Shown one piece after another: positions 443 through 64,000 of a stretch of DNA of 64,000 nucleotides. Each line of letters begins with the position of its first letter. Position 1 is the first letter of the stretch. The stretch is from Amaranthus tricolor (Eukaryota > Streptophyta > Magnoliopsida > Caryophyllales > Amaranthaceae), in assembly GCF_026212465.1 (NCBI RefSeq), contig NC_080051.1, forward strand, positions 16,496,634-16,560,633. Direction: 5' to 3'. The position numbers and the translations under genes were made by a program. The notes under the pieces are model-generated. The model ran no database searches and was not told the DNA's origin. It saw only the letters and a list, made by a program, of their open reading frames with translations.

Positions 443-2078
443 ATGAAAACACCAAAAACCTGTAAGATTTCTCAACCGCAACCTCTCAATGTGGTTCATC
501 CTTCACCACTGATTGATGCACCACCGTCCTCATCTACTGAAACCAAATATGAAACATCAACACCCTCCACATCGCATGCAGGAAGCAAACGTCAAATCGC
601 CACACCTAAAAGAGGTTCATCATCCAGAACAGCCAAACGTTCAAAGCGTGCCGATCCTGACAGTGCTGAAGAGGTTTCTAAAGAAATGTCAGTAGGGTTT
701 GGTTTGGATAAGTACTGGTATGATACTACTCCTTTCCCACAACTTCACGCCATCTTACAACATCAAAATTGGGAAATGTTAATGTCTGATTCTTGTTGCA
801 ATCCAATATTCCCTAACTTAATGCGTGAATTTATCTTAAACTTTTCTATTGATAATGGGGTTTGTTCTATCTCTATTAAGGAAATAAAAATAGAATTTAA
901 TAGATTGATGTTGGGGGAATGGTTTAATATTCCTCCTGTTGGATTTGATACTTATCATGTTGGTTCAAAGATAGTGTTTTCTGGGATTAATAAAAAGACG
1001 ATTTTTAAAATTTTTAGGGATTGAGCAAAAGAAAGGGAAGATTAGCCACAACATTTTGTCTCCTCTGCATAAATTATTGTATAGCATTCATGCATATACA
1101 TTTTACCACGAAACTCCAAACGTAGTGAAGTCAGTCTGCGTGATGCAACTTTGATTTATTACATGGCTAATCACATTAAAATAAACTTTCCTTCCTTGAT
1201 GATTTCTCATCTGTCGGATAGCATTGAAAAGGGGAGTTTTGTTGGTTATGGAGGGCTATTGACATGGTTTTTCAGAAAATATGGTGTACCTTTGGAAGGC
1301 TTACAGTTCCCTATGGGTCCTAACAAAAAAATAGGTGCCAAATGCTTATCCAATTGGCACCTAAAATTGAATGATGAAGGGATACTGATTCATGACATGG
1401 ATGAGGTTGTTGTTGTTGACTCAAAAGAAGAAAAGGTAGACGAAGTAAGGGAGAAATTAGTAAAGGAGGAAAAGGAGCAGGAGCCTGTTCCCACTGAAAC
1501 AGCAGATACTTGGGAACAGGGAGAAGCAGCAAGTAAGGGGGAATTAGAAGACAAAGGAGAAGCTTTGGAGAATGATGATTATAACATTCTAGGTAGTGAC
1601 TCAAGTGATGAGGAGGTTGTGATAGCTATGAGGAGGAATCTTAATTTAATATAGAGAAAAAGTAGGAGATTGGCTTCTAAACGCAAGGTTGCTATGGATG
1701 ATGACATCTCTTCTCACAATGTCCCTGAGCCTACTATAAATGCACCTCCCTCTCCCAAGACAGCCACATCACCACCACATCAAATTCCATCACCACCACC
1801 ATCACCTATACAGTTTACACCACCACCTTTTCAATCACACACTTCACCAGGTGTAGGGTGTGCTAACTTTGATTCTGTTCCTGCAGCTTCTCTAGACTCC
1901 ATCCTGTCTAAGCTAAATGACCTCCAGTCTCAATTTCTTGCTTTTCAAGATGAAACTCGTGTCTCACTTACCTCAATTGTTGATCAGCTCATCTAGATAG
2001 AGAACCGTCTTGGTGCCAAGCTGGACACAGTTAAAGTGCAGACTGAGTTCATAGATGAAAAAGAGACTGCTCCCTGAT
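443..2078 (+). pseudogene. Sirevirus post-pol ORF ('env-like'), broken
   Basis: Protein of unknown function encoded downstream of pol; ORFs in this position are called env-like in SIRE1-type elements. I start it at the ATG at 443, after a promoter-like leader, because the homologue in the second Sirevirus (ATG at 13483) starts at the same place. Order seen: a Ser/Thr/Pro-rich basic N-terminus with an NLS-like KRSKR cluster; a conserved globular region with SVGFGLDK and FPSLMISHL; an acidic Glu-rich linker; a Pro-rich stretch; a C-terminal coiled-coil-like segment (LDSILSKLNDLQ, then NRLGAKLDTV). No signal peptide or membrane segment is visible, so 'envelope' is doubtful. Breaks: frameshifts near 1018 and 1096, in-frame TAG at 1652-1654 and TAG at 1994-1996. 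The ancestral stop is the TGA at 2076. The globular part may match the Pfam 'putative plant transposon protein' family, but this is from memory. Confidence 0.75.
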
Positions 2079-11973: not shown

Positions 11974-13483
11974 CTAGGAAGCAGGGGCATCTTCATCAAT
12001 ATATTCTGTTTCCACCTCCACTGTATCCAATTTAGCACCAAGACGAGCCTCCATTTGAGTCATCTGGTCAGCTAATGAGGCTAGGGAAACACGAATCTCA
12101 TCTTGAAATTTGAAGAAGCGATCCTGCAAATCATCAAGCTTGAGGAGAATGGAGTATAAGGGGGCAGTAGGAACAATTGCCTGATCAAAGCTTTGTCTGT
12201 GAAATGATGGTGGTGGTGATCTTGGTGTTGGTGATGGTGGTGGTGATGGGATGGTGGAGTGGTTGGCTTTGGTGAGGGAAAACTACTGGGTTCAGCCCTA
12301 GAGTCATCATCAAGAGCAACTTCAGGTCCCATCCCCTTGTCTTCTTCCTCCTTATCAGAAGGAACAACCTCCTGTTCCTTAAGTCCAGCTCCTTCTTTCT
12401 CCTGTTCCTCCTTTCAACTTCTTTTTCCTGTTCCTCCTGTTCCTCCTTTTCCTTCCCTTCTTCCTTCTGTTTTTCCTTCTCCTTCTCCTCTTCCTCCTGT
12501 TCCTCATTATCAGAATCAATCTCAACCTGTTCCACAGCATTTTCAAGGATCCCTTCCTCATTTAATTGAAGACGCAAATTGCTCAAACATTTTGCACCTA
12601 TCATGTTACTAGGACCCATTGGAAAATTATAATCACCAAGTGGAACATCAAATTTTGAGAAAATCCAGGACAACAAACCACCATAGCCTACCATACATCT
12701 TTTGGCTATACAATCATTTAAATGCGAAATCATCAAGGAAGGAAAATTGATCTTTATATTGTTCACCATACAGTAAATCAAGGTCGCATCTCGAAGACTT
12801 ACCTCACTACGTTTTGAATTTCGTGGTAAAATAAACCTTCGAGCAATGTTGTATAGTAACTTGTGTAAGGGGGACAAAACATTGTGACTCACTTTACCTC
12901 TCTTTTGCCTAACGCCTAAACATCTCCAAACATCTTTCTCATCAATTCCAGAAAATGCAATTTTTGACCCAACATAATAAACATCAAAACCAGTGGCTGG
13001 CACTCCTAGCCACTCTCCTAACGTCAAACTATCAAATTCAATTTCAATTTATTTAATTGAACTAAAACAAACTCCATCATGAATAGAAAAATTAGAGATG
13101 AACTCACGCATAATTTCTGGGTAAATGGGATTGCAGCAGTAATCGCCCATGAGTGATTCCCAATGTTGAGTTTGTAGAATTTTGTGAAATTGAGGAAAGT
13201 TTGTAGTCTCATACCATTCTTTGTCAAGGCCAAAGCCAACTGACATTTCTTTAGATAGTTCCTCAGCGTTCAAGTAGTGGGTTACCTTGATTTTCTTGAC
13301 AGAACGTGTTAGAGGTGTCTTGGATCCTCTTGTTCTCTTACTGCCTGCATGTGTTTCCGGAGAGATGGGGGTTCCCTCCTGTTCTTTTGATGAAGACTCA
13401 GGCTTAGGAGTGTGAGAAGGTGGGTAGATGACTTGAAGTGGTACAGGTTGCTTCATTTTAGGATTCTGATTCTTGGTCTTCAT
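11974..13483 (-). pseudogene. Sirevirus post-pol ORF ('env-like'), broken
   Basis: Homologue of the ORF at 443-2078. I start at the ATG at 13483 (MKTKNQNPKM), which aligns with the start of the first copy, although the frame is open further upstream. Same architecture: basic Ser/Thr-rich N-terminus (RSVKKIKV), conserved block (SVGFGLDKEWYETTNFPQFH, FPSLMISHLND), Glu/Lys-rich low-complexity linker, Pro-rich stretch and coiled-coil C-terminus ending at the TAG at 11974-11976. Breaks: an in-frame TAA at 13049-13051 where the homologue has a Glu codon; frameshifts in the Glu-rich repeat near 12413 and in the Pro/His-coding repeat near 12250. No signal peptide or membrane helix is visible. Function unknown. 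Confidence 0.8.
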
Positions 13484-13985
13484 GGATGTTTTGAGAGAGA
13501 AAAGAAAGAGTAATGGAGAAAATGACGGTTTAGGGTTGAGTGAAAGGGAAAGGGTAATGATTATGAAGTGAAAGGTGTAACGTGAGGGAGTGGGTTTATT
13601 TATGTGAGAGGTGACGGTTACTTCTATAGGTTTTAAGTGTTCCATTTTCCTTATTTATGCATTTTGACACAGAGACACGAAATGGAGACAGATGAATTCT
13701 ATGATTCAACTCCTACTTCCAAAAAAAATTGCTGGAAAAAAGAAAAAAATTTTTATATTATTTTTTTTTTATTTTTATTATATATTTATAATAAGAAAAT
13801 GATAATATTATGCTACTACCGTTTGATCAAAATAATCATGCAATCATAAGAACATCCAAAGTATATACCTTTAAAAAATGCGTACCTGATCCTTTCAATA
13901 ATTGATCTTTCAATCAAGTTTATTGTGGTTGATTGATCATTTTCAATTTTTATTTTGTCTCTAAGAATCATATATGACACTTCCT

Positions 13986-16900
13986 TTAATGCAGCTTGAT
14001 CATGCCAAGTTCCAATCTCATTTTCTCATGATGTTCCCTTGGAAGCGGTTTGGTCATGATATCTGCTATTTGCTCGTTAGTGTTTACATGCTTAACAATA
14101 ATATTTTTATTTTCAACATTATCCTTAAGAAAATGATGCCTAATATGGATGTGCTTTACTCGTGAGTGATGCACTGGATCTTTGGATATGCATATGGCAC
14201 TGGTATTATCGCAATAAATAGGAACACATGCATACTTAATACCAAAGTCTCTTAGCTGCTGCTTTATCCATATCATTTGGGAACAGCAAGCTGCTGCTGC
14301 TACGTACTCAGCTTCAGCAGTTGATAATGCAACCGTGTTTTGTTTCTTGGAACTCCACGAAACTAAACATGAGCCAAGAAATTGTACCATACCTGACGTG
14401 CTTTTTCTATTAACAAGATCTCCTGCATAATCTGCATCACTAAAGCCTTTCAAATCAAAGACATCACTTTTAGGATAAAATAATGATAAATCATCTGTTC
14501 CCTTTAGATATCTCAAAATACGTTTCACTGCAGTTAGATGTGATTCTTTAGGGTTAGATTGAAATCTCGCACATAGACCAACACTAAATGCAATATCGGG
14601 TCTACTAGCAGTTAGATATAATAAAGATCCAATCATGCCTCTATACATAGTTTGGTCAATATTTGTTCCATTTGTATCTTCATCTAATCTTAGATTAGTA
14701 GCCATGGGTGTATGGTTGGTTTTAGCGTTATTCAAGCCATATTTCTTAAGAAGTTCTTTTATATATTTTTGTTGATGAATAAAGATACCATTAGCAGTTT
14801 GTTTAATTTGCAAACCAAGAAAGAAATTTAATTCTCCCATCATGCTCATTTCAAATTCAGTGCTCATAAGGTTAGCAAATTCTTTACATAGCAATTCATT
14901 TGTGGCACCAAAAATAATATCATCAACATATATTTGAACAACTAATATATTGGAACCTTTATTCTTAAAGAATAAGGTTTTATCAATTTTACCTCTAATA
15001 AAGTCATTTTGGATCAAAAACTTTGATAGTCTTTCATACCATTGCCTTGGAGCTTGTTTCAACCCATAAAGAGCTTTATCAAGCTTATAGACATGATCAA
15101 GACACGAGGTATTCTCAAAGCCAGGCGGTTGTTCAACAAAAACTTCTTCATCAAGAAAACCATTCAAGAAAGCACATTTCACATCCATTTGATATAATTT
15201 AAAGTTCATAAATGCAGCAAAAGAAATTAAAATTCTAATAGCTTCTAACCTTGCTACTGGAGCAAATGTCTCAGTATAATCAATACCTTCTTGTTGATTG
15301 TACCCTTTGACCACGAGCCTTGCTTTGTTTCTTACAATTATTCCATGCTCATCTAGTTTGTTCCGAAATACCCATTTCAAACCAATTACCTTCTTGTGTT
15401 TCGGTTTGGGTTCTAAATGCCATACTTTGTTCCTTTCAAATTCGTTCAATTCATCTTGCATGGCTACAACCCATTCCGAATCCCTTAGAGCTTCTTCGTG
15501 ATTTTTGGGTTCAAGTGATGATAGGAACGCAAAATGTGCACAAAAGTTTCTCATTTGAGATCTAGTTTGTGTTCCTTTATTTAAGTCACTTATAATCAAA
15601 TCAAGAGGATGGTATTTTTGATATCTCCAAGATTTTGGCATAAAATCTCTTGTGGGAACAGTAGCATGTTCTGGTTCATCAGCTTGATTAACATTCTGTT
15701 CAGCTACTGGATTGTTCTGCTCATCTGTGGGAACAGCTGGATTGGGAACAGTTTGCTGTTCCTGATGTTCTGGCAGTTCCTGAACTTGATCAGTACTTTC
15801 TGCTTCTGCTGGAACCGGCTGTTCACCAGCTGTTTCTTGATCATGCACTTTCAATTCTTCATCATCTTCCTCTAGATTTGCAAGACCTATCTTAAAATTA
15901 TTTGTATCCTGTTCACTTAACAAAAAGTTAGTTTCATCGAAAATTATGTGAACGGATTCTTCCACACCCATTGTTCTTTTGTTATAGACTCTATATGCCT
16001 TACTTTGAGATGAGTAGCCAAGAAATACTGCTTCATCACTTCTTTTATCAAATTTACCTATATTCCGTTTTCCATTAACATGTACAAAACATTTGCATCC
16101 AAACACACGAAAATAGGCAATATTTGGTTTAACACCTTTAAACAGTTCATAGGGTGTCTTAGAAGTGATTGGTCTTATCAATACTCTATTTAAAATATAA
16201 CATGCAGTATTAACAGCTTCGGCCCAAAAATTTCTAGGTAAACCACTAGCAATTAACATAGTTCTAGCCATTTCTTCTAAAGTTCTATTTTTCCTTTCTA
16301 CAACACCATTTTGTTGTGGTGTTCTAGGGGCGGAAAAATTGTGACTTATTCCATGTTCATTGCAATAACTCATAAAACTTGAATTTTCAAATTCTTTACC
16401 ATGATCTGACCTTATGTGAACAATTTGATTATTGGTAGATTTTTGTATTTTGTTAGCGAAAGAAACAAACTCATTAAAGGCTTCATCTTTACTAACTAGA
16501 AATAAAGTCCATGTAAATCTACTATAATCATCAACAATAACAAACACATATCTCTTGCCACTACGGCTTTGTATTCTCATAGGTCCACACAAATCCATAT
16601 GTAATAATTCAAGCGTTTTTGAGGTGGGCACAACATTCTTTGGTTTAAAAGATGACCTTACTTGTTTTCCTTTGGCACAAGGATCACATATTTCATCCTT
16701 AAGGAATTTTATAGATGGTAGTCCTCTAACTAGGTCTTTAGATCTTAATGTATTAATCAATGAATAACTAGCATGACCTAGACGCTTATGCCAAAGAAGT
16801 GGGTCGTCTTCTATAACACTTAGACACGTTAGACTGTTTCTGGGAACAGTGTCCAGGTCCACCACATAAGTGTTCCCTTTTCTGATTCCCTCAAGAATGA

Positions 16901-17084
16901 TGTCTCCTGTGTCGTTCCTAGAAATAATGCACTTTTCAGAAGTAAAGTTTACAGAGTTACCCTTATCACAAAATTGAGAAATGCTGAGTAAGTTGTGTTT
17001 CAAATTCTCGACTAAAAATACATTATCAATGGCGTGGGAACATGACCTTCCAACCTTTCCTTTGGCGATTATCTCACCCTTCAT
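13986..17084 (-). CDS. Sirevirus pol: integrase, RT, RNase H (protease missing)
   Basis: Long open frame for most of Copia pol, about 1,032 residues from the first in-frame Met. Order: VTFGDN-type spacer; integrase HHCC zinc finger near residue 98 (LLWHKRLGH, then CDPCAKGK); DDE core with [16 protein letters not shown] and NGVVERKN; a Glu/Gln/Pro-rich linker; RT starting near [12 protein letters not shown] with the catalytic YVDDIIFG; RNase H with DADYAGD and [10 protein letters not shown], ending after [12 protein letters not shown]. The sequence is of the SIRE type. The frame is intact here, but the upstream protease block (DSG active site) is absent and the joint to gag is out of frame near 17145, so this Met is only the first one available. 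In an intact element the region is translated as part of a gag-pol polyprotein. Confidence 0.9.
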
Positions 17085-17101
17085 ATTGTCACCGAAGGTT
17101 A

Positions 17102-18539
17102 CTATTCCCCCATCATAGGCTTCAAGTGAGAGAAATTTAGATTTGTTCCCCCATCGACTAATAATCTGTATTGCGATAGCTCAATGTTAAGAATAACATT
17201 TTCCTTCTTAAGTCTCTCCATATTTTCCTTTAGGATTATATTTTGGTCCAACAAACCGAAAAATCTGTTTTGGACATCATGTCTAAAGGTGTTTATGTAT
17301 GAGACATGGTCTTTGCTTACCTTAAGTTCCTTTTCTAACTTGAGACACTTATCATTGCAATTTTCAAGTTTAACTTGTGCCTCTTTTAACAACTCTTTTA
17401 ATTCATTTTTACTTGGATTGAATGAATGGTCAGAAAATGAATTAAAAATATTTACCTGCTTCTCCTTGCCTTTATGTGTAGCCATGAGACATAGGTTAGC
17501 TGTCTCCTCTTCTTCGGGAACAATAGTTTCATTCTCACTTTCAGTTTCTCCCCATGCAGCAATCATGGCCTTACGAAAGTCAGTCTTGTTAAAATTTTCT
17601 TTGTTCAACGGTCTTCTTGAATCTCTTGTCTTTCCCTTGCCCTTTTCATTCTTCCATGTTGGGCAATCCTTGATGAAGTGTTCGGTACTTCCACATTTGT
17701 GGCATTCAAGATTTTTTGTTCTTCTTTCTTTGTTGTTTCTTTGATTTGCATACCTGCTGTTCCTGAAGAACTTCTTGAATTTTCGTACCAATAAAGCGGC
17801 CTCTTCCTCATCACATTCTGATTCGTCCTGTTCCCCCCGCTGCCAGAGCTAGTCCCTTGTTCCTGGAACTGTCTGCTGTTCCCAAATGCAATTCATGCGT
17901 CATTAGGGAACCAGCTAGCTCCTCTAGATTGAACTTAGTAAAATCTTTGGACTCTTGTATAGCAGTAACCTTGGCCCTCCAGCGCTCATCTTGAGGAAGG
18001 CTCCTAAGAATCTTCCTTACTTGTTCATCAGTGGGAATTATTCTTCCAAGAGAGACAAGCTCATTTGTTATGTTGGTGAACCTAGTGAACATCTCTTGGA
18101 TACTTTCTCTTGGCTCCATAACAAATCTCTCGTATTTAGACATTAACAAATCAATTTTGGACCGTTTTACTTCACTTGTTCCCTCATGGGTAACAGCAAG
18201 GAGGTCCCAAATTTGCTTAGCGGATTTGCACCCCATAATTCTATTATGCTCGTTTGGTCCAAGACCACAATGAAGTAATTTTATAGCAAGAGCATTTAAT
18301 TCCATTTTATGAAAATCTTCTTTTTCATATTCGGTTATAGGTTTGGGAACAATTTCATTGTTGGAGTTAGTAGTGGTTACCTCAAAATCTCCGATTTCTA
18401 TGACTCTCCAAACTTGATAATTTTCCGCTTTGATGAAGATCTCCATCCTATTCTTCCAGTATGTATAGAATTTTCCATCGAACATTGGCGGTCTTTGAGT
18501 TGAATACCCTTCTTCCATTCGCTCGTTCATAATTGACAT
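17102..18539 (-). pseudogene. Sirevirus gag with frameshift; protease deleted
   Basis: Capsid-nucleocapsid gene. Starts MSIMNERMEEGY at 18539, 55 bases after the PBS. The N-terminal half (242 codons) is a Copia-type gag (PPMFDGKFYTYWKNRMEIF, then FTRFTNITNELVSLGR). A one-base surplus in the C6 run at 17833-17838 (G6 on the coding strand) shifts the frame. The second half, 17791-17102, continues with the CCHC zinc knuckle CHKCGSTEHFIKDC and a coiled-coil segment ([16 protein letters not shown]). The frame then jumps to the [14 protein letters not shown] segment of pol without the WYLDSGCS-type protease block. A 10-base direct repeat GATGGGGGAA on the coding strand flanks the joint. Confidence 0.85.
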
Positions 18540-53779: not shown

Positions 53780-53782
<3 letters not shown>

Positions 53783-56436
53783 AACACCCCGTAATTTATC
53801 GGGTTTAAGAAATAATATAATAAAATAAAATAAATACGTATTATTAAATTATATTATTTCACATATATAATTTTAAGAAATAAAGTGAGTTAAATTTTAA
53901 CGGTAACGAGTTTTATCGCGTACGAGACTATCGCGTAACGTTCTTTTTATTTTAACAATAATATAATAATGACTTAATTAATTAATTAAATTAAATTAAA
54001 AAAAAATAATAATGAGAGGGGAGTGAAGGGGTGGCCGGTTGTGATGAGGAGGAAGGGGAGGAGTTTGTAACTCCTCTCATAAGTGAGTATTATGGCATAA
54101 TTAAACTCACCTCTTAAGTGCCTATTAATCCTTAAGCATCATTGAGTTGCCTCACTTTTCCTAAGCTTTCAAAGTGAACAAAAAAATTCAGAAATTTTCC
54201 CTCTTTCTTGCTCTTGTTTCGGTATTCAAGGAAAAAAAAAAAAACTTTGTTCAATTCAATCTTCAAATCAAAGGGTAAGTAAGTTGAGTTGTTAATTATA
54301 AATTTTATTTATAAGAAATTCTAGTATGAGATTATATAATATTTCTTTCAATATGATGATATCCTATGACTTATTAGGAGGATTGAGTATTTTACATAAG
54401 TTTTCTTTTATAATCCTTTGATAAAATTGATTTGTCAAAAGGGTTAAATCATATCTCTGTTATGCAAAATTTTCCTTGATTTACATTCTTTAACAAAGTT
54501 CAAATTTGTTATAAGAATAAAGTTTATACAAAGGTTAAAAATGTATTTATTTTATACCTTATATTTCTCTAGCAAGATGTTAGTTTGTTAGAAGAAATTT
54601 TAAGTGTATGGATTAAGTAATGTAGGTATCCATGAGTTTATAAATCCTTTAACAAAATTTGATTTGTTTAAAGGATTGTCCTTATATAGGTGTTTGATTC
54701 AAAAATGATGATATATGATTCTCTACAAAATTTTAATTTGATAAGAGAATCAAGTATTTAATTTAATTGTCAAGGGTTATGAAACTTTAATTGCTTTTGA
54801 AGGATCTTGTGGATGAATATTTTTAAATTGTTAATTTTGTGTTTTGATGATGGTTTGGATTGTTGATGGGATTTTATGTATTGTTACATGTGTGGAAATA
54901 TCAAGTGGATGGTGGGATAGGAGATTTGGTTTTATTTGTTTTATTTTAGTAAAAGGTAAATTTGGTTTTGGTTAGGTATATTTTGATATGGGGATTTAAA
55001 AAGGGATTAAATAATTTAAATAGAAAAAAAAATATATATATAAATATAATAAAAATAATTTAAGTAGCGGGAATTTTCGGACAGCAGCTGCTGCCTCGGT
55101 AGTGGCGCTCCGATCCGAGTATCGGGTGTGTTTCGTTGTGGTTTTATTTAACCGATGCGTTTTTTTTTTAAAACTCGTTAAAACGCTTAAAATAATTAAA
55201 AATAGTAATCGGATGCTAGAAATTATGAAATTTGGTACCCAAGATAATTGATGCGTTCCGGACGCAGCGGTGAAGTCGGATTTTTAATTTGAATTTTCTA
55301 AACTGTCCGATTTGGCCATAAAAGTTTCTGGTCAGAATGGGAATTTTGGAGCGATCATGAATTGGATGAAAACATTTGAAATTGTCAAGTCTTTGTGATA
55401 TTTTAGTAGTATGGAGTGGATTGTTTGTGTAAACCCGTTATTAAACGTGGTCGTTTTGTGTGTTTGTTAATTAGGACCTCGATTCATAAGAGGGTGAAAT
55501 TCTTGTCGTGCGTAAACGTCGTTTGGATTTGCTGTGCTTAAAGGTACACGCTTAGACCATACTGTTTATATGGTTGTGCAAGTAATGTTGTTTTATTCCT
55601 AATCGAGGCATTGTAATCGCATAAGGATTAGACACCTCAAATAATATGAAATAATTATGTGGAAATTGAGAATTTATGGATATGTTACCCAAAAGGGTTA
55701 ACAAATAAATTGGAAAACTATCAACTATTTTTCCCATGGCATTCAGGGATCTTTATGGTCACCATGGGGGTATGCATACTTAGCCTTTGGCGACCCGAAC
55801 AGGACGGGCAACGTCTTAGGTAGGTGGTTGCCTTGGGATTTGCTCTCCCAAGTGTATTCCACCAAAACAAATTTGGAATATGACTTGTACGACCCGAACA
55901 GGACGGGCAACGTTACAAGGTTTGGAATTAATGAATAAAGATTACATAATAGAGCCTTTGCATGCTAGGGTAAACACAATGCTTGTATTCAACCTGTTTT
56001 GTATATGTATGAAGTCTCTGACGTGTATTGGTTGTTCTTTGGAACCTGCTACGTGTTATCATATGACGTGCAGCAGGTTAACTGCAGGAGGGGGCTGGAG
56101 TGAGGATTCAGCTTAGAACCCGTAACTATCAAGTCTAGACTTACTTTGTAATGAGTCTAAATACCTCAGTTTATGTAAACAAAGTTTATGATGTTTTCTT
56201 TTTATTTCGTACAACTTTTAGCTAGTCTAGAGGCCGGTGGGCTCTCGAGTTGTATGTAAAGACTTCCGCTGTTTTGTTTGGTTTTGTTTTGTTTGGCGCT
56301 GTTTTCTTTGTTGACCATATTCCTTTACCGTTGGAACGTTGACGATCCGAGTAAGGATGTGTTTATTTGTGTCCGTAAGTGAACCGGATTCATGTTTTCA
56401 CATGATTTTCCGGGTCACTTTAACCGGGCCGTTACA
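53780..56436 (+). repeat. Tekay 5' LTR
   Basis: 2,657 bp, TGTAACACCCCG...GGGCCGTTACA (ends TGTAAC/GTTACA, inverted). Contains a 24-bp direct repeat beginning CGACCCGAACAGGACGGG at 55791-55814 and 55890-55913. The LTR holds the promoter; no single clear TATA box stood out. The open frame at 55880-56116 has no motif. Confidence 0.95.
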
Positions 56437-56438
56437 AT

Positions 56439-56450
56439 TGGTATCAGAGC
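56439..56450 (+). promoter_or_regulatory. primer-binding site, initiator tRNA-Met type
   Basis: TGGTATCAGAGC, followed by CAACG, two bases after the LTR end. Complementary to the initiator tRNA-Met 3' end. Confidence 0.96.
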
Positions 56451-56656
56451 CAACGTTCCCTAGGAGATAAAGGAATATCAGACCTTAGGAATGAGAGACG
56501 GGGAATGGTCGAATGTGATAAAAAAAAAAAAAAACATTGTATGCGTTTGTTGTGATGTAGCTGGCTTTGGACCATTAGGGTTATAAAGTGTCTAGGTGTC
56601 CTTAGTTAACAATTTCTTACTTGATTCCTTTTCGTTATGTGTATGTGTTCAGGATT

Positions 56657-57343
56657 ATGTATACGGGAAAGACACCTATGGACCCACGCACCCCCAGTGA
56701 ATCAAGAGAGGTACCGAGGTTTGACCCTGAATCTGTCTGGAGGGAAGTTTCCAACGCTGACATATGGAAAATAAGGAGTGGTGAAAGTATCCAAGATTAT
56801 AGGGAAAGGATGCTTATGGTTAAAGAAAAAGCCGATAGAGTATGTTACGACTTAGAGTTGGACCTAAATAGGTTACACCGTTTGTCTGAACCTAGGAAGA
56901 GTGTAACCCCTGAGAGGAAGGGCGAGCCTCCAATATCGGGCGGCACCGATGGGACCATGGAACCACTAAGAGAGCGGGTCCTTCCGGATTCCCCACTGGT
57001 GGAAACCGAGGCTCAGACAGAGAGTGATATTGAGATGTGGGAGCCTAGTCGTGAACCGCCTATATATATAGAAATTTCCAGCGATGATGATGAGAGAGAG
57101 AACTGGGGATCGCATTACGACTTATATGGCTTTGAGGTTGGGTTTGATAGGGGGTGGTCTGATGAGGAAGATCCTGAGGAAGAGGTAGAAGATTTACAAT
57201 TAAGCAGCCCTAGAGATAGTGGTAGTGAATCAGAAGAATCATATTCGGATTCCAGCTCTGATTCTGGAGAAGACGGGGAAGATGAGGACTTCGATATAGC
57301 AAGTTACGATGAGGGTGCTGACACTTGGGATGCTTGGCGCTAG
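56657..57343 (+). CDS. acidic pre-gag ORF of the Tekay element, function unknown
   Basis: 228 codons from the first in-frame ATG, 206 bases after the PBS, to a TAG; fully open. I recognise no family. Residues 1-25 are Pro-rich; 43-76 look helical and charged (YRERMLMVKEKADRVCYDLE); 80-135 are Pro/Glu-rich linker. Residues 136-145 read IYIEISSDDD, a hydrophobic core next to Ser and Asp that fits a SUMO-interacting motif. Residues 165-228 are an acidic Ser/Asp/Glu tail ending DTWDAWR. There is no zinc knuckle, signal peptide or membrane helix. It is followed by a 3'-UTR-like T-rich region with AATAAA-like words and an A13 tract (57574-57586), 446 bases before the gag ATG. Extra ORFs before gag are known in Ogre (Tat lineage); I do not know one for Tekay. 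It could be element-specific or a captured host sequence. Confidence 0.75.
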   Translation: MYTGKTPMDPRTPSESREVPRFDPESVWREVSNADIWKIRSGESIQDYRERMLMVKEKADRVCYDLELDLNRLHRLSEPRKSVTPERKGEPPISGGTDGTMEPLRERVLPDSPLVETEAQTESDIEMWEPSREPPIYIEISSDDDERENWGSHYDLYGFEVGFDRGWSDEEDPEEEVEDLQLSSPRDSGSESEESYSDSSSDSGEDGEDEDFDIASYDEGADTWDAWR

Positions 57344-57789
57344 ATGTTCTATTCCTTTTGTTTTGTTTTCGCATCTTTCCTTGAGCTATTTTTCTTTTTA
57401 GTTGTATCTTTTTAATCAAATAAACGATAAGGAAATAATGTAAACTCTTGTATGAGACAACTTTTGATGTATCAACAGATATCTATAAAATATTGAGGTG
57501 TGTTGCTGTTTCTTTTGGTGTTGTAAGTTCGTGTATTATACATGTAATTCTTCTTTTGTAAGCAATTCAACTCAAAAAAAAAAAAATAATAATAATAATA
57601 TTAATAACAATAACAGTAAAAATAACGAATAATGAAAATAACAATACCTATATATATATGTATATATATTTAGGGATAAACAAACAAGTAAGTGACTGTT
57701 AGGTTTACCCAGCAAACCTTGTTCTTTCTCCAAAGGTCAGGAATCTTAGGACTTTCTTTTGATTTGTACCTTTCTTTCGCTTGCAGAAG
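57344..57789 (+). promoter_or_regulatory. inter-ORF region with polyA-like tract and 3' splice-site-like sequence
   Basis: After the acidic ORF: T-rich sequence, AAATAAACG (57419), TGTAAACTC, then CAACTC plus A13 and (AAT)n (57568-57602). Further on, a pyrimidine-rich tract ending TTTCTTTCGCTTGCAG (57771-57786) stands three bases before the gag ATG: a good 3' splice-site match. Together these suggest two transcript forms, one with the acidic ORF and one spliced to gag. This is inferred. Confidence 0.45.
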
Positions 57790-60700
57790 ATGCCTCCAAT
57801 TTCTAGGAAGAGACTGTCTCGAAGTGATGCTAACCGTACGATAAGAAATCTGGTGAAAGCGTTAACAAATGTAAATGCACCCCGAGAGAAGTCTTTGTCG
57901 GAGTTAGCCTCAGAAATGAGCAAAAGGATTAGCCAGAGTAAACCCTCAACTTTCGATGGTAATGGGGAACCGTCAGAACTGGAACTTTGGTTAAGAGAAT
58001 TTGACAAACTTTTCGATGTCGTTGAGTGCCCAGAAGAATTAAAAGTCAATCAAGCTGCCTTTTATTTGGTGGGGGAAGCCGACTACTGGTGGGCAAACAG
58101 TAGATCGGGATTGTTAGAGCAAGCTGAGGGAGACTTTGATTGGGATTTGTTCAAAAGAGCTATGCGAGAGAAATTTTATCCGCTGCATGTTAGAAAGGAT
58201 AAATCGAACGAGTTTGCGCGATTGGAAATGGGTAGTATGACGGTAGACGAATATTATCACAAATTTATGGAGTACCTCAAGTATTGTCCTGATGATGTAC
58301 CCACTGAGGAGAAAAAGATGCAACGTTTTGAGCTAGGTTTATCTTTCGATATTCAAAAGCATATTGAGAGTGACCGATATAATACACTGGAGCAGATGTA
58401 TAAGCGAGCGTCACAAATAGGGAATATTTTGAGGAAAGAAAAGGAAAAAGAGAAGGGTAATGTCCCTGAGAAAAGGAAAGAAGTTTCTGGCCAGGCTTTG
58501 GAGAATGTGTCGGGCTTCTATCAGAAGAAAGCAAGGAATTTTGGAAATTTTCAGGGAGTCGGGTCTAGTTCGAATTCAGGGATTAGGAACAACGTGAAGC
58601 TTACTAAGCCATTATTGGACAGAGATGGCAATGAGAGGAAGTATTTCTGTAAGAGGTGCAAGAAAAATCATCCGGCAAAGGATTGTGAAGGAAATCTGAT
58701 CGAATGTAACTTTTGCCACAAAAGAGGGCATAGAGAGTTTGAATGCTACATAAAGAAAGGGGGGAGAAGTCAACATCCGAGTGGTCAAAACCGGCAACAA
58801 AATTTAAACAACGCTGGTAGTCAAGCCAGTCAACAGCACGGGAATGGAAATCGTGGTAATGCTGATCAGAGATTCCAGCGACCTTTTTATGGCGGGCAAG
58901 GCCGGGTAGATGGAAATCGAGTAGAAGGGTCAGGAATGCAGCGCGGGGGAAATCACGTGGGAGGAAATAATGTACAGCCGGCGAGCGGAAGGGTATCTGC
59001 GGTCAGTGCAAGAGAAGCTGACCAGGCAACAGATGTGGTTACAGGTACGTTCGCCATTCATTCTATAGCTGTGAATGTATTGTTTGATTCGGGAGCTACA
59101 TGCTCATTTCTTGCAAAGAGTAAGGTGAACGAGTTGAATTTGGAGACCTTTGAAAAAGTTTCTTATACGGTGGCTGTACCATCGGGAAAATTGTACAGTT
59201 GTGAAAAACTGTATAGGGATGTACCCTTAAGGATAGGAAAGGTTGTCTTTCCTAGCGACTTGTATGTGTTAGATATGGAAGGTTTAGAAGTAATTTTGGG
59301 GATGGATTGGCTGGGAAGGTATAAGGCCACTATTGAATGCAGAGAGCAGAGAGTTTTGTTGGAAGGACCAAGAGGTGAAAGAGTTAGATACAGGAAGTTT
59401 CCCAAGGGACCCAGGACGAATTTGGTGTCGACCTTAGATTTGCAAAGGCTTGTGAGGCAAGGACACCCTTTGTATTTATGTCATATCAGCCAGGGGGATA
59501 AGAAAGAGGGGAATCCCCAGGATATTGCTGTGGTGAATGAATTTTTGGATGTTTTTCCTGACGAGATTCCCGGAATGCCACCACAACGGGAAATTGATTT
59601 CACGATCGACTTGGTACCGGGGACTGGACCGGTTTCTAAGGCCCCTTATCGTATGGCTCCAAAGGAGATGGAGGAATTGAAGTCTCAACTTGAAGAATTG
59701 TTGGATAAAGGTTATATTCGACCTAGTGTTTCACCTTGGGGCGCTCCAGTTCTGTTTGTGAGAAAGAAAGATGGTAGTTTAAGGTTATGCATTGATTACA
59801 GGGAGTTAAATAAGGTAACAGTTAAGAATAAATACCCGTTGCCCCGGATAGATGACTTGTTTGATCAATTGAGAGGAGCCGGGATCTTTTCGAAGATTGA
59901 CTTAAGATCAGGTTATCACCAGCTAAGAATAGCTGAAGGGGATATACATAAAACCGCTTTCAGAACACGATATGGGCATTATGAGTTCACAGTGATGCCG
60001 TTTGGGTTGACAAATGCTCCAGCCGCGTTCATGTGCTTAATGAACCAAGTGTTTAGTGCATACTTGGATAAATTCGTCGTTATCTTTATCGATGATATAT
60101 TGGTCTATTCGAAAGACCGAGAAGAACATCAGGAACATCTACGATTTGTCCTGCAAACCCTGCGAGAAAATAAGTTGTACGCGAAGTTGTCAAAGTGTGA
60201 ATTTTGGTTGGATAAGGTATCGTTTTTGGGTCATTTTGTCTCTAAGGAAGGTATTTCGGTGGATCCGGTAAAGGTGGAGGCGGTTCGAAGTTGGCCGTCA
60301 CCTAAGAACGTCACCGAGGTACGAAGTTTCCTAGGTTTGGCCGGGTATTACCGTCGTTTTGTTAAGGATTTCTCGCGTATTGCTCGGCCCATGACCTCGT
60401 TAATGAAGAAAGAGAGGAAGTTCGAATGGACGGATGAATGTGAACAGGCCTTCATGACTTTGAAGGAAAGGTTAACTACGGCCCCTGTTCTTACTCTACC
60501 TGACCCTAAGTTGGATTATACTGTTTACAGTGACGCATCAAAGAAAGGGTTGGGTTGTGTTCTGATGCAGGACCGTAAGGTGATTGCTTATGCATCACGA
60601 CAACTGAAGGTACATGAAGTTAATTATCCGACCCATGATCTGGAATTAGCCGCTATAGTTTTCGCTCTCAAGATATGGCGGCATTACTTGTATGGCGTTA

Positions 60701-62445
60701 AGTGTAGGATTTACACTGATCATCAGAGTCTGAAATATCTCTATACACAACCTGACTTAAACATGCGACAACGTCGGTGGTTAGAGTTGATGACAGATTA
60801 TGATCTGGAGTTCGTATATCATGAGGGGCGGGCGAATTTGGTGGCCGATGCTTTAAGTAGGAAGTCTAGTCACTTGCTGTCTGCCTTGGACGGAGTAGAA
60901 GAGTTGCATCGGGAGTTTGCTAGGCTGAACTTGGAAGTAGTACGTAAAGGCGAATTACAGGGATGTTTGAATGCCTTGGCTATACGACCTTCGTTCTTTG
61001 AGGAAATTTTGAATTCTTAGGATAAAGACCCGAAACTCTTGAAATTAAAGGACCAAGCACGGGAAGGAACATCAGAGGGATTCCTTGTCCATGAAGATGG
61101 AAGCTTGAGGTTCAAGGGTCGTTGGTGTTTACCGACAGGGGAGGAATCTTTGAAGGAACGTATCCTGGATGAAGCTCATTGTACGAAGTTTTCAGTCCAT
61201 CCGGGTGGTGACAAGATGTACCAAGACCTCAAGTTATTGTTTTGGTGGTCTGGGATGAAGAGGGATATTGCAGAATATGTCTCACGCTGTCTGACATGTC
61301 AGAAGGTTAAAAGCGAGCACAAGAGACCAGGAGGGTTATTGCAACCGTTAGAGATACCAGTGTGGAAGTGGGATGATATCTCTATGGATTTCGTTGTGGG
61401 TTTACCTCGAACGAAAGCAGGTAACGATGCACTATGGGTTATAGTTGATCGTTTGACTAAATCGGCACGTTTCATCCCTATGAATTGTCGCTGGGAGATG
61501 GAACAATTGGCACGAGCCTACATTAAGTATGTTGTACGATTCCACGGTGTACCCCGTACTATTGTGTCAGATAGAGACACACGATATCTGTCACAGTTTT
61601 GGCAAACCTTGCAACAGGCCATGGGTACAACGTTGCTCTATAGTACGTCGTTTCATCCGCAGACGGATGGACAGACAGAACGAACGAATCAGGTATTGGA
61701 GGATATGTTACGTGCTATTGCCATGGAGTGGCAAGGGTCATGGGATGAACATTTGGATCTAGTTGAGTTTTCTTATAACAACAGTTATCAAGCTTCTATA
61801 CAGATGGCTCCATTCGAGGCTTTGTATGGGCGTCGTTGTCGTAGTCCGGTTTATTGGGACGATTTTACTGAAGCGGTGACCTTAGGACCTGAATTGTTGT
61901 TTCAGATGAGTGAGAAGGTACGATTGATAAGGGATCGTTTGAAAGCGACACAGGATCGCCAAAAGTCGTATGCTGATTTGAAACGACGGCCAGAGGAGTT
62001 CAACGTGGGAGAACAGGTATTACTTCGCGTATCACCCATGCGCGGAGTAGTACGTTTTGGTGCTCGGGGAAAGTTGAGCCCTCGGTTCATTGGGCCATAT
62101 GAAGTTTTGGAACGTGTGGGTAAAGTGGCTTATCGGTTAGCTCTTCCAAACTCTTTAGAAAAGGTACATGATGTATTTCATGTGTCTCAGTTAAAGCGGT
62201 ATCATGCCGCAGCCACTCATGTATTAGACCCTGAACCTTTAGATTTGGATGCATCTTTGTCGTACCCTGAACAACCGGCTCGAATCTTGGATAAAAAGGT
62301 CCGTAGCACTCGAAGGAAGGATATATCTATGGTAAAAGTCCTGTGGTCAAATCACGAGCGTGAAGCGGCTACTTGGGAAACAGAAGACGCTATGCGAGAA
62401 AAGTACCCTCACCTTTTTCAGGTCAGTAGAGTTACGGGGACGTAA
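57790..62445 (+). pseudogene. Tekay gag-pol polyprotein with one in-frame TAG
   Basis: 1,551 sense-codon frame from [10 protein letters not shown] (57790) to RVTGT, interrupted only by TAG at 61018-61020. Gag: [33 protein letters not shown]; nucleocapsid knuckles [13 protein letters not shown] (about residue 286) and [14 protein letters not shown] (305). Protease [11 protein letters not shown] (432). RT from about 640: [26 protein letters not shown], catalytic [10 protein letters not shown] (766). RNase [12 protein letters not shown] (912) and DHQSLKYL. After the stop the integrase follows in frame: HPGGDKMYQDLK, CLTCQK, core SMDFVVGLP, VSDRDTRY, DGQTERTNQ; then a chromodomain (RILDKKVRSTRRKDISMVKV, WETEDAMREKYPHLF), which targets chromoviruses to histone marks. 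The TAG fits CAG-to-TAG. Whether it is a mutation or is read through is open. Confidence 0.93.
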
Positions 62446-62606: not shown

Positions 62607-62624
62607 CTTTTAAGGGGGGTAGTC
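62607..62624 (+). promoter_or_regulatory. Tekay polypurine tract
   Basis: TTTTAAGGGGGGTAGTC abuts the 3' LTR. A twin, TTCTTAAGGGGGGTAGAG, stands at 62445-62462; both follow GGACGTAACTTCTT. Confidence 0.88.
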
Positions 62625-64000
62625 TGTAACACCCCGTAATTTATCGGGTTTAAGAAATAATATAATAAAATAAAATAAATACGTATTATTAAATTATATT
62701 ATTTCACATATATAATTTTAAGAAATAAAGTGAGTTAAATTTTAACGGTAACGAGTTTTATCGCGTACGAGACTATCGCGTAACGTTCTTTTTATTTTAA
62801 CAATAATATAATAATGACTTAATTAATTAATTAAATTAAATTAAAAAAAAAATAATAATGAGAGGGGAGTGAAGGGGTGGCCGGTTGTGATGAGGAGGAA
62901 GGGGAGGAGTTTGTAACTCCTCTCATAAGTGAGTATTATGGCATAATTAAACTCATCTCTTAAGTGCCTATTAATCCTTAAGCATCATTGAGTTGCCTCA
63001 CTTTTCCTAAGCTTTCAAAGTGAACAAAAAAATTCAGAAATTTTCCCTCTTTCTTGCTCTTGTTTCGGTATTCAAGGAAAAAAAAAAAAAACTCTGTTCA
63101 ATTCAATCTTCAAATCAAAGGGTAAGTAAGTTGAGTTGTTAATTATAAATTTTATTTATAAGAAATTCTAGTATGAGATTATATAATATTTCTTTCAATA
63201 TGATGATATCCTATGACTTATTAGGAGGATTGAGTATTTTACATAAGTTTTCTTTTATAATCCTTTGATAAAATTGATTTGTCAAAAGGGTTAAATCATA
63301 TCTCTGTTATGCAAAATTTTCCTTGATTTACATTCTTTAACAAAGTTCAAATTTGTTATAAGAATAAAGTTTATACAAAGGTTAAAAATGTATTTATTTT
63401 ATACCTTATATTTCTCTAGCAAGATGTTAGTTTGTTAGAAGAAATTTTAAGTGTATGGATTAAGTAATGTAGGTATCCATGAGTTTATAAATCCTTTAAC
63501 AAAATTTGATTTGTTTAAAGGATTGTCCTTATATAGGTGTTTGATTCAAAAATGATGATATATGATTCTCTACAAAATTTTAATTTGATAAGAGAATCAA
63601 GTATTTAATTTAATTGTCAAGGGTTATGAAACTTTAATTGCTTTTGAAGGATCTTGTGGATGAATATTTTTAAATTGTTAATTTTGTGTTTTGATGATGG
63701 TTTGGATTGTTGATGGGATTTTATTATTGTTACATGTGTGGAAATATCAAGTGGATGGTGGGATAGGAGATTTGGTTTTATTTGTTTTATTTTAGTAAAA
63801 GGTAAATTTGGTTTTGGTTAGGTATATTTTGATATGGGGATTTAAAAAGGGATTAAATAATTTAAATAGAAAAAAAAATATATATATAAATATAATAAAA
63901 ATAATTTAAGTAGCGGGAATTTTCGGACAGCAGCTGCTGCCTCGGTAGTGGCGCTCCGATCCGAGTATCGGGTGTGTTTCGTTGTGGTTTTATTTAACCG
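62625..64000 (+). repeat. Tekay 3' LTR, cut by window end
   Basis: TGTAACACCCCG onward, nearly identical to 53780-55160. Differences seen: one C/T in AAACTCACCTC against AAACTCATCTC, one T/C after the A-run (ACTTTGTTC against ACTCTGTTC), a one-to-two-base deletion in TTTTATGTATTG, and A-run length. Confidence 0.97.

Follow-up and report, generated by a model that had tools for sequence, protein, structure and literature searches.

A putative GT-AG intron between a conserved 5' accessory reading frame and gag in a probable Tekay-type chromovirus of Amaranthus tricolor

Open reading frames (ORFs) upstream of gag have been published for long terminal repeat (LTR) retrotransposons of the Tekay/Del group, as ORF0 in Retrosat2, RIRE3, RIRE8, FRetro3 and their grass homologues, including those of rice (PMC3485330). 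Retrosat-2 has been placed in the same clade (PMC6317226), and in sunflower Tekay group 2 a 5' accessory ORF (5'aORF) is described as conserved in 500 of 523 copies (PMC11728184). As for splicing, the available text of a 2005 paper states that no intron before gag was known (PMC1142308), and that of a 2025 review singles out two plant LTR elements, Ogre and EVADE, as the notable exceptions (PMC12786077). Here we analyze an element within a 64,000-nucleotide stretch of the Amaranthus tricolor genome (contig NC_080051.1, positions 16,496,634 to 16,560,633 of the forward strand), referred to below as the window. We propose that this element is a Tekay-type chromovirus which combines a conserved 5' accessory protein with a GT-AG intron before gag, a reading that we consider probable as a whole. 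The work of Steinbauerova et al. from 2011 is reportedly also connected with pre-gag ORFs of Tekay/Del elements. An earlier note on this DNA had held that Tekay elements encode only gag-pol and that a pre-gag ORF was known from Ogre, a view made outdated by the grass and sunflower publications.

A conserved reading frame upstream of gag

The accessory ORF occupies positions 56657..57343 on the forward strand, with its ATG at 56657 and its TAG at 57341-57343, and encodes 228 amino acids. It lies between the primer binding site (PBS; TGGTATCAGAGC, 56439..56450, +), which we take to be a match to initiator tRNA-Met, and the gag ATG at 57790. The coordinates of this open 228-codon frame, to which the earlier note had drawn attention, were confirmed, and none of 1000 dinucleotide shuffles of 56437-57789 reached its length, the longest shuffled frame having 147 codons. 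A search of the host genome (519.85 Mb in 45 contigs; the species is reported to have a genome of about 520 Mb, with 4.5% Tekay [PMC12651990]) gave 163 matches to the ORF, and the 150 listed, from a search that scored 150 of 350 candidates, are 52 to 100% identical to it, the lowest ones being partial. Sister copies were checked for breakage: 24 listed matches span the full ORF with at least 97% identity, and 23 of them are free of stops. A listed ORF match was present upstream, within 3 kb, of 114 of the 150 best gag matches. Eight of the 36 gag matches lacking one were inspected; five had a diverged or broken ORF, and in three the ORF was deleted.

Forty-three non-redundant copies of the ORF were fetched, and 38 of them had no stop, a proportion raised by a selection that favored copies listed as open. 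The copies were grouped into lineage A (26 copies) and lineage B (13 copies, one with a stop), with L032, L046, L047 and L048 excluded; measured by identity to the window ORF, the two groups divide at 83%. The ratio of nonsynonymous to synonymous divergence (dN/dS) was measured by the NG86 method, and 22 A and 7 B copies of gag served as a control. Ratios near 1 were looked for, and the values for the ORF proved to be well below this: all 338 A x B pairs were below 1 (median, 0.22), as were all 287 pairs within A having dS above 0.05 (325 pairs in total; median, 0.27) and 74 of 74 pairs within B (78 in total; median, 0.37). The corresponding values for gag were 0.063 for A x B, 0.084 within A and 0.264 within B, where 18 of 19 pairs were below 1. 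Because dN/dS of the ORF is well below 1, the protein is maintained by purifying selection, which is looser than that on gag. Three database searches for relatives of the protein gave mostly matches on short contigs, with one named species only, Amaranthus hypochondriacus, and none outside an Amaranthus-like group, the grass and sunflower proteins not having been directly compared. The window protein also had no Pfam match. Within reach of protein searches, the family looks lineage restricted.

The accessory protein has a pI of 4.14 over its whole length. An AlphaFold2 model built with 31 sequences was confident only for a helix at residues 45-77 and a short preceding stretch (mean pLDDT, 57.2), and the rest of the protein, which is acidic, was modeled as disordered. 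Heptads run through residues 45-76 of the helix (56789..56884, +), with I Y M V A V L D L L at the a and d positions; nine of these ten residues are hydrophobic, a value equaled by 41 of 20,000 shuffles when the best of seven registers was taken. The tail, residues 161-228 (57137..57340, +), ends in DEDFDIASYDEGADTWDAWR, has low pLDDT and contains 27 D/E and 13 S among its 68 residues. Both this Ser/Asp/Glu-rich tail and the segment IYIEISSDDD at residues 136-145 (57062..57091, +), proposed previously as a SUMO-interacting motif (SIM), are present as described. A SIM has a four-residue hydrophobic core with an acidic or Ser flank. The flank of the segment fits this rule, but its core begins with Tyr where an aliphatic residue would be expected, and the segment is therefore not a textbook SIM. 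The stretch itself is conserved. Among the 43 fetched copies, 29 fit the strict family pattern Y-[IV]-E-I-S-S-[DE] and all but one of the remaining 14 differ from it by a single residue, and residues 121-160, which contain the segment, are the slowest-changing part of the protein (dN of 0.12 versus 0.16-0.22 elsewhere; 25 pairs). What stands of the earlier proposal is a protein kept by selection and a conserved SIM-like stretch; the contact with SUMO or chromatin that it also suggested is hypothetical. The search for relatives of solved structure returned only Nup62, at an E value of 0.1. Our guess, held with rather less than even confidence, is that the N-terminal helix lets the protein oligomerize and that SIM-like and aromatic-acidic segments of the disordered tail give it a nuclear role, with chromatin or the element's own RNA as the target.

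An intron-like segment between the ORF and gag

The ORF and gag are separated by a 441-nucleotide (nt) segment (57346..57786, +) with the boundaries GAT/GTTCTA and CGCTTGCAG/AAGATG, which we infer to be a spliceosomal intron and which is exactly absent from copies of the sister lineage. This spacer, which lies beyond the coordinates given in the earlier note, proved to be the most telling stretch of the region. Copies that carry it read AAAAT/GTTTTCC...TTGCAG/AAGATG, with an ORF-gag gap of 325-790 nt. In L032, L034, L036, L037, L041-L044 and L046, AAAAT (or AAGAT) runs straight into AAGATG, and comparison of the two forms places the breakpoints unambiguously at GT and AG. The ORF stop stands 6-12 nt ahead of the gag ATG in these nine fetched intron-less copies. 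The B-type junction pattern TTAARATAAGATGYC had 47 matches in the genome, and a reversed control pattern had 4. Of these 47, 30 lie directly next to a listed ORF match. Among the 143 of 150 listed ORF rows that reach residue 226, the pattern thus accompanies 30 of the 68 B-like rows and none of the 75 A-like ones. When the count was based on gag, 23 of 44 B-like and 0 of 70 A-like gag matches were intron-less; a 48-nt gap was present in 3 of the 21 B-like rows classed as intron bearing. The gap is 102 nt in L048 and 45 nt in L045, and since L045 retains both intron ends, its short gap is attributed to internal deletion.

The interior of the spacer diverges like third codon positions (medians of 0.143 and 0.154, respectively, with 0.066 for positions 1 and 2). 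Across 29 copies, identity rises to 95-97% in the final 45 nt, and of seven 15-nt blocks further upstream, six are at 69-86% and one is at 95%. The GT was retained in 27 and the AG in 28 of the 29 spacers examined, a count that leaves out L014, with its shifted gag start, and copies with gaps below 200 nt. GT-AG ends with a conserved acceptor are features of a spliceosomal intron. These data suggest that the spacer is a GT-AG intron and that the intron-less genomic copies provide indirect evidence of its splicing.

In a tree of the ORF (26 rows), the intron-less state needs four changes, at least two of which are forced by well-supported branches; in a gag tree (24 rows), in which many inner branches are weak, it needs three, again with at least two forced. 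The intron-less copies formed one group in 0 of 200 bootstrap trees with either data set. Both lineages have segments with the same ends, as do the deep rows L033 and L045 (shortened in the latter), and loss is therefore the simpler reading. The exactness of the ends would be explained by loss through reverse transcription of spliced RNA. The PBS leader is kept in eight of the nine fetched intron-less copies, and none was seen in L041.

Two further ideas about the intron-less copies were considered. Readthrough from the ORF into gag would be in frame at a 6-nt gap, yet it is not favored, because the gap of L042-L044 contains another in-frame stop and splicing would leave gag of the A-like copies in a different frame from the ORF. 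Relaxed selection on gag was likewise not adopted: among B-like copies, gag contains stops in 19 of the 23 without the intron and in 13 of the 21 with it, numbers too close, from copies too related, to decide the matter. As separate observations, stops at gag residues 67 and 83 are common to L042, L043 and L044, all of them intron-less, and in 11 listed rows (C4:16370630 and similar) gag is interrupted by a single TAG and a single TAA, with positions checked in the fetched copies. Near-identical copies with a broken gag suggest movement on proteins supplied by other copies.

In the mechanism that we propose, the intron, with its weak donor and a strong acceptor ending 3 nt before the gag ATG, would be spliced from part of the transcripts, and spliced RNA would have been reverse-transcribed more than once to yield the intron-less copies. 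The accessory protein would be made from unspliced or ORF-retaining RNA, and joining of the pre-gag acceptor to an upstream donor, perhaps that of the LTR, could give a gag-pol mRNA lacking the ORF. A putative strong 5' splice site, AAAGG/GTAAGT, is present in the 5' LTR (54270..54282, +; GT at 54275), and the window shares its GGTAA with all 22 of 25 loci that were alignable; this donor is a lead, suggestive only. A putative 3' splice site, GTTCAG/GATT (56647..56656, +), directly precedes the ORF, and visual inspection shows its AG/GA in the majority of A and B copies, although it is not kept in L041 and is changed in L048. The LTR donor and pre-ORF acceptor together suggest a cassette-exon scheme. 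Extended further, this would amount to retrovirus-like alternative splicing, new for chromoviruses, in which the LTR donor joins either the pre-ORF or the pre-gag acceptor, the ORF behaves as a cassette exon, unspliced PBS-bearing RNA is copied and the balance is regulated in the nucleus by the accessory protein, like Rev or the Cer1 protein. We regard this extended scheme as speculative and unlikely.

Weighing of alternative explanations

A number of observations weigh against the proposed combination of accessory protein and intron. The case for splicing is drawn from genomic sequence, and the spacer donor is weak. All intron-less copies found belong to the B-like lineage, so that splicing in the lineage of the window itself would follow by homology. 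Removal of the intron would still leave gag as a second cistron. Recombination between elements may have spread some of the losses, and a single loss could have been spread in this way. Further upstream, the 8-mer of the LTR donor is not exceptionally conserved, coming 35th among 283 windows, and a genome search for the LTR-donor/gag junction gave one match, in an unrelated place. Long gag-pol frames also occur beside damaged ORFs: L059 has a broken or diverged ORF next to a 1560-codon gag-pol, and in L060 (C8:28095600-28097720) the ORF is deleted, the PBS is joined almost directly to gag and the listed open frame has 1574 codons. The ORF may therefore be dispensable in cis, which speaks against an essential cis role. 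The gag ATG of L060 is altered. Finally, the Chromo match of the window element, at the expected C-terminal place, reaches an E value of 4.7e-4 and 20.5 bits against a curated cut-off of 25.1, and the integrase core, rve, scores 22.9 against 32.6 bits; because both fall under the Pfam cut-offs, our confidence is slightly lowered.

One alternative accepts the ORF as real and denies the intron: the short form would be ancestral, with 325-790 nt inserted later, or would have arisen by deletion through DNA recombination. The purely genomic nature of the case for splicing favors this alternative, as does partial loss of the region by plain deletion, with untidy ends, in L060, L063, L065 and L066. 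However, the GT...AG ends, the conserved pyrimidine-rich acceptor, the same-ended segment in A, B and the two deep rows and its exact absence on separate branches of two trees make it improbable in our view. The element might instead be unremarkable apart from an ordinary Tekay 5' accessory ORF of the kind known from grasses and sunflower. The ORF shares their position and strand, evolves faster than gag-pol and, as in sunflower, encodes a protein with disorder and compositional bias, and the LTR termini are like those of Retrosat2 (TGTCACACCC-GGGCGTGACA). This account leaves the exact intron-like absences unexplained, and "intron" occurs 0 times in the available text of PMC3485330 and PMC11728184; we consider it possible but doubtful.

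The origin of the protein was also considered. The N-terminal helix might be the remnant of a capsid helix duplicated from gag, since a weak Pfam Retrotrans_gag match was obtained for 7 of 31 family members (best E value, 0.05), spanning ~32 residues in the four members rescanned with coordinates. The best score was 14.2 bits against a curated cut-off of 24.1, and profile comparison with the element's own gag found nothing (probability, 0.2-0.3%); with the Pfam matches thus unconfirmed, a gag origin was set aside as very unlikely. That the ORF arose by chance, or is a captured fragment of a host gene with no function in the element, agrees with the lack of a Pfam match for the window protein. 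Such an origin is scarcely credible against the shuffles, dN/dS of about 0.2-0.4 and the retention of the ORF in most gag-bearing copies examined.

Element architecture and comparison with known systems

The 5' LTR of the element spans 53780..56436 (+; 2657 bp, TGTAACACCC...GGGCCGTTACA), and the 3' LTR (62625..64000, +) runs past the end of the window. The near identity of the LTRs claimed previously was borne out: over the 1377 readable aligned columns, which cover the part of the 3' LTR inside the window, identity is 99.64%, with 2 mismatches and 3 gaps, and the remainder lies beyond the window end. A polypurine tract, AAGGGGGG, is located at 62612..62619 (+). The gag-pol frame with its putative chromodomain (57790..62445, +) contains a single in-frame stop at 61018-61020, so the window copy is not fully intact; relatives are listed with an uninterrupted 1560-codon gag-pol frame. 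Of the 114 gag matches having a listed ORF upstream, 23 possess open frames of 1500 codons or more, and all 23 are among the 70 A-like matches. Pfam matches above cut-off were obtained for gag, RVP_2, RVT_1, RNase H and the integrase zinc domain, in the Ty3/gypsy order of gag, protease (PR), reverse transcriptase (RT), RNase H (RH) and integrase (INT). An LTR of 2657 bp agrees with the long LTRs of Tekay/Del elements (about 2.5-3 kb or more). The LTRs of beet Tekay elements measure 2.56-3.0 kb, one LTR being truncated, and the words "additional ORF" are absent from the available text of that report (PMC3605345).

Other features were noted in the element and around it. A 24-nt motif, CGACCCGAACAGGACGGGCAACGT, occurs twice in the 5' LTR of the window (55791-55814 and 55890-55913) and three times, at up to 3 mismatches, in L049, L051, L052, L059, L060, L063 and L065; none was found in L022. 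The motif has a CCCG/CGGG stem and is nearly identical where the surrounding LTR has drifted to about 72-77% identity, and in L020, L027, L029 and L050 the loop of the second copy is CACATGT, with a palindromic ACATGT and the stem retained. By analogy, this pattern resembles a kissing-loop or packaging signal. Seven copies of the ORF lie ~8.8 kb apart on one strand at C10:21813134-21866588, resembling a tandem array, as if LTRs were shared. Elsewhere in the window, two ORFs at 12185-13645 (-) stand 3' of a Copia element, adjoining its pol at 13986-18539 (-), and the second has a weak Transposase_32 match (E value, 4.1e-8; below cut-off). A look-alike ORF pair at 443-1654 (+) has no Pfam match.

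The grass ORF0 elements resemble the amaranth element in having an ORF upstream of gag-pol, similar LTR termini and long LTRs, of over 3.2 kb in the grasses (PMC3485330) and 2.66 kb here. In both, the ORF evolves faster than gag-pol (Ka of 0.257 versus 0.078 in grasses; dN/dS of 0.22 versus 0.06 for gag in amaranth), and the two ORFs are likened by description, not by sequence. The sunflower 5'aORF protein shares the scarcity of confident helices and the predominance of disorder (PMC11728184), whereas it is ~400 amino acids long and proline rich and has a predicted basic nuclear localization signal, in contrast to the 228-residue acidic amaranth protein. A literature search of limited depth found no Tekay element for which an intron ahead of gag had been published. 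Since pre-gag ORFs are published and such an intron was not found reported, the ORF-intron-gag layout would, pending RNA evidence, be new and the accessory ORF itself of a known kind. If true, an intron before gag would mean that splicing decides which protein is made, in one family, and this bears on the role of Tekay 5' accessory ORFs and on the translation of a gag that follows a long upstream frame. Intron-bearing and intron-less copies coexist in one genome.

Among elements known to splice, Ogre of the Tat lineage is similar in that its intron is removed from only part of the transcripts (PMC6317226) and in that it has an ORF before gag (PMC1142308). Its intron lies between protease and RT, whereas the relatives of the amaranth element have an unbroken gag-pol of 1560 codons in one frame and the proposed intron precedes gag. 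EVADE and BARE1, both Copia elements, are likewise plant LTR elements that splice to obtain separate messages (PMC12786077; PMC3735527), but they do so within gag-pol, favoring Gag alone, rather than upstream of gag. Cer1 of Caenorhabditis elegans, also an LTR element, has an additional protein in the nucleus that is linked to its RNA in both spliced and unspliced form (PMC12786077) and offers a functional analogy only. In the amaranth element, the exact loss of the intron-like gap from several sister copies hints that RNA splicing helps to control it.
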